64,000 nt of DNA from Candidatus Desulfovibrio gallistercoris. GTDB taxonomy: Bacteria > Desulfobacterota > Desulfovibrionia > Desulfovibrionales > Desulfovibrionaceae. Of the stretch, positions 4,668 through 36,603 are shown piece by piece. The position numbers and the translations under genes were made by a program. Positions within the stretch are counted from its first letter, which is position 1, and each line of letters starts with the position of its first letter. The notes beneath the pieces were generated by a model, which searched no databases, was not told the origin of the DNA, and saw only the letters and a program-made list of their open reading frames with translations. Location: NCBI GenBank assembly GCA_019118745.1, contig DWYJ01000017.1, positions 46,613-110,612 on the forward strand. Reading direction: 5' to 3'.

Positions 4668-5576
4668 TTAGTTCCAAAGCCCCCGCAACACGGCCCAGCA
4701 GTCGCCTTGCGGCAGTTCCCGGCGTTCGGCGAGGGCCAGTTCGCAGCCCGCTTCCATGAGCAGGGCGCGGCAGCCTTCGCCGCGGCAGGGCACCGTCTGC
4801 CCGTTGCGGATGCGCCGCGCCTCGTCCGGCGTGAGATCCACGCGCGGCCAGTGGGGCAGGGCTTCCGCCAGGGGGCGCAGGCCACGGACCATGCACGCCG
4901 GGTCCGCCGTGATGGCGTCCAGCGACACGGCCGCATCCAGGCCGAAGGGGTGGCTGTACTCGCGGGTCAGTTCCGTGAGCACGGCTCCGCACCCAAGTCG
5001 TTTCCCCAAGCTGTGGGCCAGGGAACGTATATAGGTGCCGGAACTGCAGGCGACCCGAAAGCGTACAAGCGGGAGGGCCATTTCCAGCACTTCCGCCTGC
5101 GAAATCTCCATGCGTTTGATCTTGACCGGCGTCTCCACGCCCTTGCGGGCCAGTTTGTAGAGGGGCTGCCCCTCATGCTTGGCCGCCGAGTATGCGGGCA
5201 CTTCCTGCTCCGTCAGCTCCCGCCAGGCGCTGACTTCGGCGCGGACGGCCGCCTCGCTCACATCCTGCCACGGCAGTTCGCGCAGGATCTGTCCCTGGCT
5301 GTCCCAGGTGTCGCTTTCCTGCCCGAGGCGAAGGACGCCGCTGTAGACCTTGCCGCCGTCCGCCAGCAGGTGCGAGGCGATCTTGGTCCCCTGTCCGAGC
5401 AGCACCAGCAGGACGCCGGAAGCCAGCGGGTCAAGGGTGCCGGCGTGGCCGATCTTTTTCTGTCCCAGACGTTTGAGCACCGAAAGGCAACGGGCGGAAG
5501 TGGGACCGGACGGCTTGTCGAGCACCAGCACGCCATGCAGCTGCGGCAGGGCAGGAGAGTTTTGCTTGGTCATCAT
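4668..5576 (-). CDS. truB: tRNA pseudouridine(55) synthase
   Basis: Makes pseudouridine 55 in the T-loop of tRNAs. The 302-residue protein has the catalytic [14 protein letters not shown] motif near residues 38-51 with the nucleophilic Asp, plus [19 protein letters not shown] and [11 protein letters not shown] blocks. The start is one of two adjacent ATG codons (5576 or 5573); the Shine-Dalgarno sequence is weak. It is followed by rpsO and pnp on the same strand. A 224-base gap holding a repeat copy separates it from the HprK/PqqD gene upstream, so it may have its own promoter. Confidence 0.95.
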
Positions 5577-5800: not shown

Positions 5801-7174
5801 TCAGGACGTCTCCACCTGTTCGAGGAAACCGGCTGCGCAAAGGCGCTGCCGCAGAGCCGTCACGTCCCGGCGGATACGGGGAAGGCCCGCCTGGGGGAAG
5901 GCTTCGGCCAGCAGGGCGGCCAGTTCCGCATCGCTGCCCGGTTCCTCCCAGAGCTGCCAGAGCGCGCACCCCATACCGTTGAGCCGGAAGACGCGGCCGT
6001 CCCGTCCGGCGGCCTCCTCGTCCCGCGCCAGGAAGCCCCCGGCGGCATCCTGCCGGAAGATGACGCCGGGACGCTGCCGCCAGGCGGCGGGAAGGGCGTC
6101 GGGGGGTCGGCGCACGCCGCGAGCGTGACGGCGGCGAAACGCCCGTGGTGGCCGTACGCCCTCACGCGGCGGGCAAGGCGCGGCAAGGTCGTCTGTCACA
6201 GCCGGGACGACGGGCTGGGGCTGCGGCAGGCCGGGGGAGAAGGCGGCGGCCTGCCAGCCGTCCAGCAGGGCGGCGGCCTCGTCCAGCGTTCGGTAGCGCA
6301 GCACGCGGCAGGGGACGCGCTGGAGCAGGTCGCAGGCCGTGCGCAGGGCAAGGCCGGCCCGGCCGTCCCGCAACAGGAAGCGCAGCAGCAGATCCCGCAT
6401 GTCGTCCTGCCGGGCTTGCGGCAACAGGCCGCAGGCGGCGGCCGGATCTTCCTGTCTGTCCAGGATGACGACGGCATCCACCGGCAGGAGCGTCCCCCAC
6501 GGCAGCATGGGCAGGCGTGCGGGATCGCAGCAAAGATAGTAGTCGTCGCCGCAGGCGGCGTAGGGCGAGGACGGGCCCCGCAGGGGGGCGAGGCTCTCGC
6601 ACTCCGGCAGCGGGAGCCGCAGGCGGGGGGCAAAACCGTAGGAGAAAAGCTCTCCCGCCGGACTCAGCGCCAGCATGTCGTCCCCAAGGCCCTGCCAGCC
6701 GTCCAGCAGCAGACGGGCCATGAGCGCGCTTTTACCTGCCTTGTGCGTGCCGCAGAAGAGGACGGTGCGCCCGTCGCGGACGGCTGCGGCGGCATGGATG
6801 CCCATTTGGCTGGTATGCTGCGTCTCGTAGACGGCGACGAGCTCCACGGCGAGCGTGCAGGCCAGACAGGTCAGGCTCGGTTCAAGGCTGTAGCCCGGCC
6901 GCAACCGGGCTACGGCATCCTGCGGATGGAACGGCGTGAAATCCGTGGCTTCCGGGCTTGCCCCGTGCAGCCGGAAAGCTCCGCCCGCCAGCGGCTCCAC
7001 CAGGAAGCTGGGGGACGTTCCCGTCGCAATGGCCGGGATGTGGTGCGGCCAGCAGCCCAGCACCCGGCGGAGCGCGCGCAGGAGCGCGTCCGTCCCCTCA
7101 GCCGCGCCGGGCAGCAGGCGTACGGGCCCCGGTATCCCCCGGAAGCAGATATCCCGGCTGGTTGCTGTCGGCAT
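5801..7174 (-). CDS. HPr-kinase-like ATPase fused to a PqqD/RRE domain
   Basis: 457 residues. The middle resembles HPr kinase-type P-loop proteins: GIHAAA at about 125, a Walker A GTHKAGKS at 142-149 and LGDDMLAL at 163-170. The last 90 residues look like PqqD, the RiPP precursor recognition element (VFRLNGMGCALWQLWEE, then a DVTALRQRL helix). HprK-like kinases are known to modify serine in some lasso peptides, and PqqD domains bind RiPP leader peptides. No asparagine synthetase or radical SAM partner is present. It starts 18 bases after the stop of a small Tat-leader protein, without a clear ribosome site, so it is probably coupled. The likely job is modification of the two small proteins upstream, by inference only. 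Cytoplasmic. Confidence 0.8.
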   Translation of the reverse strand: MPTATSRDICFRGIPGPVRLLPGAAEGTDALLRALRRVLGCWPHHIPAIATGTSPSFLVEPLAGGAFRLHGASPEATDFTPFHPQDAVARLRPGYSLEPSLTCLACTLAVELVAVYETQHTSQMGIHAAAAVRDGRTVLFCGTHKAGKSALMARLLLDGWQGLGDDMLALSPAGELFSYGFAPRLRLPLPECESLAPLRGPSSPYAACGDDYYLCCDPARLPMLPWGTLLPVDAVVILDRQEDPAAACGLLPQARQDDMRDLLLRFLLRDGRAGLALRTACDLLQRVPCRVLRYRTLDEAAALLDGWQAAAFSPGLPQPQPVVPAVTDDLAAPCPPREGVRPPRAFRRRHARGVRRPPDALPAAWRQRPGVIFRQDAAGGFLARDEEAAGRDGRVFRLNGMGCALWQLWEEPGSDAELAALLAEAFPQAGLPRIRRDVTALRQRLCAAGFLEQVETS

Positions 7175-7192
7175 GCGTGGTCTGACCGTCGG

Positions 7193-7537
7193 TTAATTGG
7201 GACGGAAGCCGCCGCCGTGCGAGGGCGCGGTGCCGCCACGATAGCCTCCGGCTCCACCGGTGGGCCCCTGGTAGCCGCTGGGCGCGGGGCCGCTCTGGTA
7301 GCCGCCGCCGGGATGCCCGTAATAGCTGTGCCGGGACCGCGGGCTGCGATAGGTGCGGCGGGAGCGAGGGCTGCGGTAGGTATGATAGGAATGGGCCTGG
7401 GCCTCGTCCAGCCCCAATAGGGTGGGGGCGGTGTAGGCCATGCCGGCGGCCACAAGGCCAAGCAGGAAGCGGCGGCGGCTGCTGCCGGCGGCCGGTTGCC
7501 GAGTTGCGGTGTTGTCGCGTTGTTGCTGTTGGGACAT
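7193..7537 (-). CDS. Small Tat-leader protein with RS/RSP and Gly-rich tail (candidate substrate 1)
   Basis: 114 residues starting at MSQQQQ; AGGGAG lies seven bases before the ATG. A twin-arginine signal (SRRRFLLGLVAAGMAY) leads into TAPTLLGLDEAQA, with a plausible AxA cleavage site near residue 47. The exported part has RSPRSRRTYRSPRSR repeats, then a Gly/Pro/Tyr-rich end (GGGYQSGPAPSGYQGPTGG). The leader is almost identical to that of the gene at 7708-8157, while the tails differ. Such tails resemble SR-type phosphorylation substrates or RiPP cores. No named family was recognised. Confidence 0.75.
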   Translation of the reverse strand: MSQQQQRDNTATRQPAAGSSRRRFLLGLVAAGMAYTAPTLLGLDEAQAHSYHTYRSPRSRRTYRSPRSRHSYYGHPGGGYQSGPAPSGYQGPTGGAGGYRGGTAPSHGGGFRPN

Positions 7538-7707
7538 GGGCTGACTCCCTGTGCGGCAGCGGCCGGCGCATGCCTCCATGCGCGCTCCGCTGGTATGGTG
7601 TTGAGGACAGCGTTGTGTATACCGCGGGCGGCGTCAGAAAAGCGTCAGCCCGCACGGCGGGCGTTCGGGCGGCAGGCCAGGGAGCCTGCCGCCCGGTTTC
7701 ATGTCAG

Positions 7708-8157
7708 CTACGTGTCGCGGCGCGGGCCGTCCGGCCTTCTGTGATCGCGGTCAAGGCCTTCGAAACGCTTTACGTTCTCGCCTGGCCTGCCGTCACGGCG
7801 GGAAGGCCGCGTCCTGTAGCGGTCACGCGGTTCCGGCCTGCCCGGATGGGGCCCGCCGGGCCGTCTGCTGGGCCGTGTCCGTCCGGGACGGGTGCGGCCG
7901 GGCCGGGTACGGTCGGGACGACGACGGCTGGGGCGCGTGCGTCTGGTCCGGCGGCGGTTGCTGGGCCGGGTCCGCCGGGTGCGACGCCTGTTGGAATGCC
8001 TCTTCCACGGTTCGGCCTCGGCCTCATCCAGCCCCAGCAGGGTGGGGGTGACGTAGGCCAGACCGGCGGCCACGAGGCCCAGCAGGAAACGGCGCCGGTC
8101 AGATGGCGTCCGTTCCGGTTCATCGACAGTGTTCTGCACTCGTTCATGCTCGTTCAT
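7708..8157 (-). CDS. Small Tat-leader protein with Arg/Thr/Pro repeats (candidate substrate 2)
   Basis: 149 residues; AGGAGGG lies four bases before the ATG. The N-terminus carries DRRRFLLGLVAAGLAY followed by VTPTLLGLDEAEA, a near copy of the leader of the next gene. The remainder is extremely basic: SNRRRTRRTRPS occurs twice in tandem, then RTRPGRTRPGRTRPSRR, then a less regular charged end. Export through Tat with cleavage after AEA is the natural reading. It begins 50 bases after the nrnA stop on the same strand. Function unknown; the shared leader and adjacency suggest that both small proteins are handled by the HprK/PqqD protein. Confidence 0.75.
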   Translation of the reverse strand: MNEHERVQNTVDEPERTPSDRRRFLLGLVAAGLAYVTPTLLGLDEAEAEPWKRHSNRRRTRRTRPSNRRRTRRTRPSRRRPDRTRPGRTRPGRTRPSRRPGGPHPGRPEPRDRYRTRPSRRDGRPGENVKRFEGLDRDHRRPDGPRRDT

Positions 8158-8207: not shown

Positions 8208-9206
8208 TCAAAGGACGGCAGCGACAGCCCTGGTCAGCGTTTCGGCCGCCTGCGCGGCCTCCATGCGCAGGGTGCCTCCTGCCGCGTTCCGGTGTCCGCC
8301 GCCTCCCAATGCGGCGGCGGCAGCCCGTACATCCGTTTCGCCGAAGGAGCGCAAGCTGAATTTGTGGATGCCCGGCGCGTCCTCGCGCAGCAGGGCGGCC
8401 GCCCGCACGCCGGCAAGGCGGCGCATCTGTTCCACAAAGCCTTCCAGGTCTTCCTTGGTTGCTCCACAGCTCTGTAAATCATCCAACTGAACGGCACAAA
8501 AGGCAAGCGTTCCGTCGGTCAAAAGTTGTATGCGCTGCATGAGCCGGGCCCAGAGGCGCATCTTCCCCATGCTCCAGCAGTTTTCCAACTGTTGCCGCAA
8601 CAGGGGGATGTCGCAGCCGTTCTCGACCAGGTGAGCCGCCAGATGCAGGACCGCCGCGCTGGTGTTGCCGTGAGCGAAACCGCCCGTATCCGTGATGAGG
8701 CCCAGGGCCAGGGCCTGACCGAGCCTGCCCTCCAGCGGCAGGCCGGCGCTGATGGCCACATAGGCCACGAGCTGCGCCGTGGCGGCGGCCTGCGGTTCGA
8801 TCCAGTTGGCCAGGCTGCCCATGCCGTCGCTGCCCAGGTGATGGTCGATGTTGCAGGTGGTCAGGCCGGGCAGGGCCTTTTCCAGCTCGTCGCCGAGCCG
8901 GTGCGGTTCGCCGCAGTCCAGCAGCACCGCGGCGGCGGGGCGGAAGGGCAGGCGCTGCAGACTGTCGTGCACGCAGCCGGGCAAGGGGAGGAAGCCGAGG
9001 TAGGGCGGCACGCCGCTTTTGCTGTAGAGCACGCATTCCTTGCCCAGACCTTGCAGCAGGCAGCCCGTGGCCGCCACGGAGCCGAGCGCGTCCCCGTCCG
9101 GATTGACATGCCCGGCGATGATGACGCGGTCCAGCCCGCGCAGGGCGTCGGCCATGCGCGCGGCCGGGGCGCGCCAGGCGTCGGGGATAAGCTCAGTCGG
9201 CTGCAT
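8208..9206 (-). CDS. nrnA: DHH-family phosphoesterase, NrnA type
   Basis: Bifunctional nanoRNase/pApA and 3'-phosphoadenosine 5'-phosphate phosphatase. The 332-residue protein shows AGHVNPDGDALGS near residue 32, VLLDCGEP, the IDHHLGSDGMG block that names the family, GLITDTGGF, and the C-terminal DHHA1 GGGGHRNAAGG. Length fits NrnA. Its start overlaps the end of the DUF503 gene by 14 bases. Removal of pAp matters in cells making PAPS; in sulfate reducers nanoRNA degradation is the likelier role. Confidence 0.9.
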   Translation of the reverse strand: MQPTELIPDAWRAPAARMADALRGLDRVIIAGHVNPDGDALGSVAATGCLLQGLGKECVLYSKSGVPPYLGFLPLPGCVHDSLQRLPFRPAAAVLLDCGEPHRLGDELEKALPGLTTCNIDHHLGSDGMGSLANWIEPQAAATAQLVAYVAISAGLPLEGRLGQALALGLITDTGGFAHGNTSAAVLHLAAHLVENGCDIPLLRQQLENCWSMGKMRLWARLMQRIQLLTDGTLAFCAVQLDDLQSCGATKEDLEGFVEQMRRLAGVRAAALLREDAPGIHKFSLRSFGETDVRAAAAALGGGGHRNAAGGTLRMEAAQAAETLTRAVAAVL

Positions 9207-26015: not shown

Positions 26016-26054
26016 ACGGCAGGTGGTCCCGCGGGATCGCCTGCCGTTTTTTTT
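26016..26054 (+). terminator. Terminator of the PEBP-like lipoprotein gene
   Basis: ACGGCAGG pairs with CCTGCCGT across a 17-base region that can itself pair (CCCGCGGG), followed by eight T. Confidence 0.85.
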
Positions 26055-26203
26055 AGCGCGTTTCGCGTTTGAAAAAGGTGAGACGCGAGGCGGCGGCACA
26101 GCTCCGCCCGGCCAAAACCAGGCGGAAAACCGCGCTTTTTCCGCAAAACGACAGGTCGCATGGTGTTTTGAAACGCCACGCGTTTCAAACGGAAAATGCT
26201 CTA
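26054..26203 (-). repeat. MITE-like dispersed repeat, full-length copy (R4)
   Basis: About 150 bp from TAGCGCGTTTCGCGTTTG to CGTTTCAAACGGAAAATGCTCTA, with the internal core GAGGCGGCGGCACAGC and GGAAAACCGCGCTTTTTCC. It lies between the terminators of the lipoprotein gene and the EPSPS-like gene and fills most of that 339-base gap. Confidence 0.8.
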
Positions 26204-35064: not shown

Positions 35065-36357
35065 ATGGGCTGCTCGCTTCGTTATCAACATCTCTGGAAT
35101 ATGGAGAGTCTGTACTTTTACCTGCTGATTTTTGTGATCTTTTTTTTCCTGCTTGGAGGGGTCTCCATTTTGCATACGCTGCAGCATGTGGCGTTGCGTA
35201 CAGAGGAGGGCCCCTTTGCCAGAGAGCTTCGTGAAGCGGATCGCTTTCGCAGGGAGCTGCTTTTCGTTTTGCGGCACGAGGAGCCGTCCTCGGCTGAGAA
35301 TTCGGCGACGTTTGCGGAGAAAAATCTGTGCCGGGTAGACGCAGAGCGGCTGGGCCTGACTTCGCCACTGCCTCTGCTGGTGCCTGGGGAAACGGTAGGC
35401 TTTCGTTGGCAGGATACCCCGCCGGATACCAGAGGCGATGGCATACTTGTCGGGCCGGGCCCCGTGGATCTATGGCTGGGCCAAAAATTGAGCGAAAGCG
35501 ATTGGAAAACATTCGGCACGGCGATGGAACGGCTCTTACAGCGCCAGTGGAGGCCTGCCGCTGTGACCGAGGTGTCGGACGGACCCGATGACGCCCTGCT
35601 GCGCCGGATATGGATTGCGAAGGTGGTGGACCCGGCAAGCGGCCGGGAGATGGTGCAGGCCTGGGCCGTCACCCCCGCCTATGAGGGCATCCCCCTGTTT
35701 TTCTTTGCGCAGCGGACGGTACGCGGCGATACCGCAACGGCGGTAGCCGTGGTGACGGAAAGCCTGCGCAGCCTGATGGACGAAGCCTTGCCGTACGGCC
35801 GGCTGGAGCAGATGGAAAGGAATGCCGTCTGCGCGCTGGCCCTAAACAATCCGTTATTGTTGTGCGCTCTGCTCATCGGCTGGTTTTTTGCCAGGGAACT
35901 CGGCTTTGTGCTGCTGTGTGCAGTGGGGCTGGCCACCATCTTTACGCTGGGCTGCAAGCTCCTTGAGTTGCTGGGCGTGCCCATTTCCGTAAATCTCACG
36001 TTGCTGGTGGAGTTTTTCTCCCTCAATAGCCTGCTTTGCATAGGCGTTGCGCTGGCAGCGGCTGTGGCAGGCCGCCTGTGTCGCGGCCGCCAGCTTGAGG
36101 AGGAGGTCCGGCAGGTGGAGAGCGAGGTCATCCAGCGGCTTGAGGGGCAGGCCGAATTGTCGAAGCAGGAGGAATTCCTGCTCGGCATGGCCCGCAGCCG
36201 GAAGGGACGGTGCTGGATGCAATCGGCCCTTGCTGTGGGCATGCTGGTCATGCTCTGGCTGGGGATTTTCGCGACGCCGCAAGTGTGCAGCGAAAATGCC
36301 TATAGCGGCGTCCCGCAGGTGGTTGCCCGGCTTGAAGAGATGACGTCCGCACGCTAG
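35065..36357 (+). CDS. Membrane protein of unknown function
   Basis: 430 residues, not recognised. One N-terminal membrane segment (about residues 16-37), a soluble stretch of about 220 residues, then hydrophobic segments near 260-300 and 309-337, a charged coiled-coil-like part (EEEVRQVESEVIQRLEGQAE) and a last segment at 383-403. GGGAGG precedes the ATG at 35065 by three bases; an ATG at 35101 is an alternative. The TAG stop is also the first three bases of a repeat copy. It sits next to a PoNi-type immunity gene on the other strand. No function is inferred. Confidence 0.75.
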   Translation: MGCSLRYQHLWNMESLYFYLLIFVIFFFLLGGVSILHTLQHVALRTEEGPFARELREADRFRRELLFVLRHEEPSSAENSATFAEKNLCRVDAERLGLTSPLPLLVPGETVGFRWQDTPPDTRGDGILVGPGPVDLWLGQKLSESDWKTFGTAMERLLQRQWRPAAVTEVSDGPDDALLRRIWIAKVVDPASGREMVQAWAVTPAYEGIPLFFFAQRTVRGDTATAVAVVTESLRSLMDEALPYGRLEQMERNAVCALALNNPLLLCALLIGWFFARELGFVLLCAVGLATIFTLGCKLLELLGVPISVNLTLLVEFFSLNSLLCIGVALAAAVAGRLCRGRQLEEEVRQVESEVIQRLEGQAELSKQEEFLLGMARSRKGRCWMQSALAVGMLVMLWLGIFATPQVCSENAYSGVPQVVARLEEMTSAR

Positions 36358-36502
36358 AGCATTTTCCGTTTGAAGCGCGAAGTGTTTCAAACCATGAGGC
36401 CAGGCGTTTCGCGGGAAAAGCGCGGTTTTTTCCGCTCACTTTCGGCCGGGCGGAGCTGTGCCGCCACCGCGTATTTTGCCTTTTTCAAAGGCAAAACGCT
36501 CC
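36355..36502 (+). repeat. MITE-like dispersed repeat, full-length copy (R5)
   Basis: About 148 bp from TAGAGCATTTTCCGTTTGAA to TTCAAAGGCAAAACGCTC. The core has GGAAAAGCGCGGTTTTTTCC and GGCGGAGCTGTGCCGCC. Its first TAG ends the membrane-protein gene, so the repeat begins exactly at a stop codon. Confidence 0.8.
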
Positions 36503-36603
36503 AACAGGCCCTGGCCGTTTCGCAAAAGTTATGGCAGTCAACGCCGACAGGCCGCTCACATGTCGTTCTCTCGGCATGTGGGCGGCCTGTCGGCATGGCG
36601 TGG

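Follow-up and report, generated by a model that had tools for sequence, protein, structure and literature searches.

The 64,000-nucleotide stretch of DNA from a Desulfovibrio genome that we analysed, hereafter the window, carries a three-gene cassette set within a same-strand row of housekeeping genes. The gene order on the minus strand is nrnA, TatB, TatA, fusion, truB, rpsO and pnp (the last two named by eye), and the ORF list together with Pfam places the three cassette genes, and only these, in the interval between nrnA and truB. The features are:

8208-9206, minus strand: nrnA, flanking the cassette
7708..8157, minus strand: TatB, Tat-leader protein with an RTRPS-type tail, 149 aa (ORF)
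8014..8157, minus strand: TatB leader, 48 aa, ending in EAEA (leader alignment A2)
8044..8055, minus strand: YVTP of TatB, a YxxP motif and predicted RRE docking site (leader alignment A2)
7193..7537, minus strand: TatA, Tat-leader protein with an RSPRS/Gly-rich tail (ORF; start picked from relatives)
7394..7537, minus strand: TatA leader, 48 aa, ending in EAQA (leader alignment A2)
7424..7435, minus strand: YTAP of TatA, a YxxP motif and predicted RRE docking site (Y35 and P38 invariant in 36/36 aligned leaders)
5801..7174, minus strand: HprK-like kinase / PqqD-RRE fusion, 457 aa
6230..6814, minus strand: HprK-like P-loop domain of the fusion, residues 121-315 (VIA-align range to 1kkl_C)
6794..6796, minus strand: His127, at the alignment position of the His that precedes the P-loop in HprK, invariant in 80/80 loci
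6728..6751, minus strand: Walker A motif GTHKAGKS, residues 142-149, with Lys148 invariant
6677..6682, minus strand: Asp165-Asp166, aligned with the HprK Asp-Asp (alignment of relatives)
5822..6001, minus strand: PqqD / RRE domain, residues 392-451 (Pfam PF05402; profile matches to TfuB1 and TbiB1)
4668-5576, minus strand: truB, flanking the cassette on the other side

The TatA ORF begins at 7579 and stops at 7193, and relatives support a start at 7537. An earlier note on this DNA had described two adjacent small proteins with a near-identical leader and different tails beside a P-loop ATPase joined to a PqqD domain. This observation is confirmed at the locus: the leaders are 58% identical, and one polypeptide carries both GTHKAGKS and the PqqD domain. 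The closest named relative of the fusion stems from an uncultured Desulfovibrio (94%, L020). A window-wide search for repeats, promoters and terminators gave nothing that alters the reading of the cassette. Two related sequences (26053-26203 and 36355-36504; 76-88%) lie inverted to each other about 10 kb apart.

The C-terminal domain of the fusion matches Pfam PqqD with an E-value of 3.9e-9 and 37.2 bits against a gathering score of 23.4, which is also passed by 4/4 fusion relatives tested. The Pfam scan of the fusion did not find an HprK domain, and the NCBIfam model HprK_rel_A (TIGR04352) matched it at E 1e-8 and 34.7 bits, below the curated cut-off of 200; for the N-terminal domain, Pfam and NCBIfam thus yielded no match or matches below cut-off only. 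The family PF27840 is precomputed for many fusion relatives. A profile built from 18 relatives retrieved the HPr kinases 3tqf, 1ko7 and 1jb1, and the same profile also retrieved the lasso RREs TfuB1 and TbiB1. The HprK structural matches share 13-19% sequence identity with the P-loop domain. Moreover, the fusion combines an HprK-fold P-loop domain with the His, P-loop Lys and Asp-Asp of HprK-like kinases, and these catalytic residues are kept in 80/80 fusion loci. Profile and fold therefore place the P-loop domain with HprK, as the earlier note had assumed, but the curated family cut-offs are missed.

TatA and TatB share the leader motif RRRFLLGLVAAG-x-AY-x-x-PTLLGLDEA. Across the 36 leaders of alignment A2 the columns R21, R22, L25, Y35 and P38 are invariant, and the alignment displays the features of Tat substrates, i.e., a twin Arg, a hydrophobic stretch and an AxA site. 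Judged by their letters, the EAQA and EAEA ends are typical putative signal peptidase sites. The Pfam TAT_signal (PF10518) cut-off of 22.7 was not reached by TatA (11.4 bits), TatB gave no match, and 0/8 TAT_signal matches in the window genome reach this cut-off.

For RREs of the PqqD and lasso types, PMC12710340 reports W/Y/LxxP as the bound motif, and PMC13381572 gives [Y/W]xxPx[LVIAFY] as the consensus. We found [YW]xxP in all 36 aligned leaders and in 81/81 leader ORFs of 76 loci (80 Tyr; one Trp in L050, outside A2), a count that arises partly by construction, the search profile having contained YxxP, which does not hold for adjacency. The sixth motif position is Leu in 56 of the 81 leaders, Met in 15, Val in six, and Ile and Phe in two each; Met falls outside the published consensus. 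Among 37 control loci with a generic Tat-signal match, taken from genomes of the window's taxonomic order, none carries [YW]xxP within 30 residues of the RR, though these controls are not taxon-matched and two of them (L140 and L171) are plainly not Tat signals. At L050, both the small protein (WAAP) and a subtilase (WIAP) carry the Trp, which a single RRE reading both leaders would predict, and co-variation with the RRE is possible. In a tethered structural model (TatA stop read through, paired rows), residues 16-32 form a helix, Y35-P38 are irregular and residues 40-42 form a strand, with a pLDDT of about 77 for residues 31-40 and 57 for 41-50; the short modelled strand after YxxP would fit beta-addition to the RRE. 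For the earlier idea of a PqqD domain reading the shared leader, the invariant YxxP thus offers a concrete candidate site, the binding itself staying a prediction.

We scanned species genomes with the fusion profile A1 and obtained 103 relatives, of which 80 were kept (17 Desulfovibrionaceae and 63 other proteobacteria); all were chosen via the pattern [GA][ILF]APRLRLPL, so that members without it are missed. Carriers outside the Desulfovibrionaceae include Halomonas, Rhodobacter, Loktanella, Aliihoeflea, Dongia, Limnobacter and Guyparkeria. A same-strand leader ORF lies upstream of the fusion in 76/80 relatives, and in 60/63 outside the Desulfovibrionaceae (hand count), as found with a profile of nine Desulfovibrio leaders, some of them from genomes among the 80, and a weakest accepted match of E 0.008. 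The exceptions are L066, L069 and L074, where at most 489 bases of upstream sequence are available, and L034 (genome G019), whose leader protein is encoded on a different contig.

Furthermore, we searched whole-genome sets of 61 relatives of the window genome, 81 members of a Halomonas family and 100 of a Loktanella family with A2, whose 36 leaders were picked from the 81 ORFs, and A1. At cut-offs chosen after the results had been seen (leader E≤1e-6, fusion E≤1e-60), 9, 11 and 10 genomes were positive, identically for both searches. Leader and fusion hence occur together in the same 30/242 genomes, with sequences from at least five of them in A2 and from at least six in A1, while the other 212 pass neither search. 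The two genes adjoin in 29 of the 30 as read from coordinates, with G019 as the exception; the contig of G020 stops within the fusion gene, leaving the PqqD part outside the sequence. Fisher tests of co-occurrence gave 5.8e-11, 8e-14 and 6e-14, values that ignore shared ancestry. Two leader matches lie just past the cut-off, G106 (1.4e-6) and G005 (2.2e-6), the latter being a flavodoxin-type Tat protein without YxxP. Weaker A1 matches were partial, and only such matches were present in 14/61 genomes at E≤1e-3 and, at E≤1e-10, in 4/81 and 6/100 genomes of the Halomonas- and Loktanella-family sets. G073 and G152 combine a partial A1 match with a weak, non-adjacent leader match (4.7e-5 and 3.2e-5, respectively).

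The cassette site varies even within the genus, lying between nrnA and truB in G000 and G008 and upstream of an EF-Tu gene in G006 (by eye). This variation speaks for a functional pair rather than for a frozen neighbourhood. The genetic linkage was found in three clades. That a PqqD protein and Tat proteins are neighbours by chance, a reading that would suit a single locus with nothing beyond it, is refuted by the co-occurrence counts, the 29 adjacent pairs and the differing chromosomal sites, and its probability is negligible. The fusion is therefore not one that commonly occurs without such small genes, which would have spoken against the earlier note: every genome with a strong fusion match has the leader.

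The tails behave differently from the leader. Their repeat types comprise RSPRS, RTRPS, YTRPT, SYSRPS, SRPSRPS, SSGSSG, SPTSPP, GGGSGGG and FSRRSFSR. Halomonas carries SYSRPS, Rhodobacter SSGSSG or SPTSPP, and Loktanella SRPSRPS, so the earlier description of RS or RTRP tails does not extend beyond some carriers, and Arg or RS content as a common trait is ruled out by Arg-free tails. We measured composition in 73 of the 76 loci, leaving out L027, L048 and L094 on account of a pattern mismatch. Ser occurs in 73/73 tails (mean 22%, lowest 3%) and Gly likewise in 73/73 (mean 14%, lowest 2%), whereas Thr, Tyr, Arg, Lys, Pro, His and acidic residues are each absent from at least one. This leaves Ser as the sole hydroxyl residue common to all 73 tails. 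Summed Ser and Thr counts are approximate, the leader/tail split being wrong in L044, L050, L062, L076 and L082. The tail of L025 contains 3% Ser and 13% Thr.

The leader is also not confined to small repeat proteins, a further departure from the earlier note. At 14 alphaproteobacterial loci (L033, L037-L039, L041, L043, L050, L055, L065, L073, L075, L083, L085 and L090) a subtilase adjoins the cassette, with Pfam Peptidase_S8 detected in 3/3 tested. At thirteen of these loci the subtilase begins with a Tat/YxxP leader of the same type, followed by a Ser-containing tract; the remaining locus, L075, runs into the end of its contig. Over the 13 loci, the post-leader tract resembles the small-protein tail of its own locus with a mean dipeptide cosine of 0.58 against 0.36 after shuffling (0/5000 shuffles), a likeness to which shared ancestry contributes. 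Two further genomes (L175:2318-3100 and L176:1413-1916) encode a leader and a Ser/Pro tract ahead of a PepSY-like domain, an assignment below Pfam's cut-off. In L175, a response-regulator-like ORF follows this gene.

With these observations at hand, we consider it probable that the fusion docks on YxxP in the Tat leader and phosphorylates tail Ser/Thr before Tat export. The proposal builds on the fold match, the catalytic-residue pattern, the linkage, the RR and YxxP leader and its reuse on subtilases and PepSY-like proteins; from these we infer RRE-YxxP binding, a phospho-Ser/Thr product and modification ahead of export. The PqqD/RRE domain would dock on the invariant YxxP within the Tat signal peptide of the neighbouring small proteins, the fused HprK-like domain would phosphorylate Ser/Thr in their repeat tails before export, and signal peptidase would then cut the leader off at AxA, making a dedicated leader peptidase unnecessary. 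Tat, unlike Sec, exports proteins already finished in the cytoplasm. TatBC must bind the stretch of the Tat signal in which YxxP falls, so docking and export would compete. Gly is as constant as Ser in the tails, so that a kinase substrate cannot be deduced from Ser content alone. Against the kinase reading also stands that the tails lack a fixed Ser position and that some Desulfovibrio tails are Thr-rich, while for LppK, a related kinase, PMC13381572 reports no use of Thr at its site.

The fusion might instead be mainly a Tat proofreading chaperone whose RRE holds the signal peptide and whose ATP turnover releases it, the tails staying unmodified. Chaperones of the DmsD/TorD type, which serve redox-enzyme maturation, bind Tat signals, and a chaperone would suit the linkage of leader and enzyme whereas the tails vary freely. 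We regard this as unlikely given that the HprK-type catalytic residues are conserved in all 80 loci, that every measured tail across three clades contains Ser, and that within a locus the subtilase tract matches the small-protein tail. Overall, the interpretation of the earlier note, a kinase that reads the shared leader, is partly supported.

The nearest known systems are the linear polyphosphorylated peptides (LPPs) of Bacillota (PMC13381572) and the phosphorylated lasso peptides (PadeK/ThcoK/SyanK/PsmK, PMC9266682), and the window cassette fails both on gene content. According to PMC13381572, LPPs resemble the cassette in an HprK-like kinase with an RRE, a YxxP-type leader, several precursors with a conserved N-terminus and a variable C-terminus, a linear product, and leader removal by a signal-peptidase-type enzyme, which is predicted here. 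In contrast, kinase and RRE form one protein in our cassette, the leader is a Tat signal, the carriers are proteobacteria and Desulfovibrionaceae, the tails are repetitive, and the leader is reused on subtilases and PepSY-like proteins. LPP membership was rejected, since a SipW-like peptidase, a discrete RRE, an NTP transferase and an MsbA transporter are missing between nrnA and truB (relatives judged by eye). Phosphorylated lasso clusters, as described in PMC9266682, share the HprK-like kinase with His-Lys-Asp-Asp, its action on the precursor and an RRE (B1) protein, the corresponding roles here being predicted; membership was rejected as the macrolactam cyclase and B2 protease are missing between nrnA and truB (relatives again by eye), and the cassette likewise lacks the conserved C-terminal Ser and has its RRE fused. 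HprK_rel_A and PqqD_rel_X (TIGR04352 and TIGR04353) pair, by their NCBIfam names, an HprK-related domain with a PqqD-family partner, but four fusion relatives score 30-58 bits, far under the HprK_rel_A cut-off of 200, and PqqD is fused here. HPr kinase/phosphorylase shares the P-loop fold and the His/Lys/Asp-Asp pattern but differs in its low identity and in lacking the C-terminal PqqD domain. DUF2063-RRE proteins with DUF2282 precursors also pair an RRE with secreted, signal-peptide-bearing precursors; unlike the cassette, they use Sec signals, and the accessible part of PMC12710340 reports no specific recognition motif and mentions no kinase.

Like other members of the HprK/PEPCK fold, the HprK-like domain might add another or nucleotide-derived group to the tails, or act as a phosphorylase. 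We think this quite unlikely: the assayed HprK-like enzymes of RRE-containing clusters are Ser kinases according to PMC13381572 and PMC9266682, and inspection by eye of the 25 most recurrent neighbour groups revealed no NTP transferase. We judge it very unlikely that the cassette belongs to a larger RiPP pathway with its cyclase, protease or transporter genes at another site. Unlinked maturation genes do exist in some RiPP pathways; in the same 25 groups, however, linkage stood out for just the fusion, the leader proteins and, in alphaproteobacteria, the leader-bearing subtilase, and the rest resembled, on inspection by eye, host neighbours confined to a single clade.

Returning to the proposed kinase, we see an even chance that the cassette represents a new class of Tat-exported RiPP-like phosphoproteins, in which the leader would combine the roles of RiPP leader, export address and quality gate. 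Leader plus Ser-containing tract would then form a movable phosphorylation tag carried by free repeat proteins as well as by subtilases and PepSY proteins, a bacterial counterpart of SR-protein phosphorylation. Open-licence PMC titles and abstract starts contained, among the matches listed, no description of an HprK-PqqD fusion with Tat substrates; in the open-licence literature none joined 'Tat signal peptide', 'RiPP' and 'leader peptide', or 'twin-arginine', 'RiPP recognition element' and 'kinase', and the word kinase is absent from the main text of two RRE surveys. If true, the proposal would join RiPP leader recognition and Tat export, fields unconnected in the papers searched, and add a new bacterial way of labelling proteins ahead of export. 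It predicts exported phosphoproteins, proteases included, for 103 fusion relatives, and the YxxP site offers a rule for spotting further substrates.

It also offers a candidate function for proteins annotated merely as 'PqqD family protein', the label of the enzyme in 6/6 plasmid records. The plasmid copies, found in Paracoccus and Shinella, have genes for an S8 peptidase and a sigma factor as neighbours. In alphaproteobacteria, the cassette is oriented divergently to annotated sigma-factor genes in L180 and L181 and to anti-sigma-like genes (by eye) in L043 and L073, which suggests stress control of this cassette. On the Paracoccus marcusii plasmid (L180:4508-4971), the small leader gene is missing from the gene table, and its ORF appears to switch frame after the leader. 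The Aliihoeflea genome of L038 contains an additional leader ORF with a GGGS tail (L178, contig C42), perhaps belonging to a second cassette.
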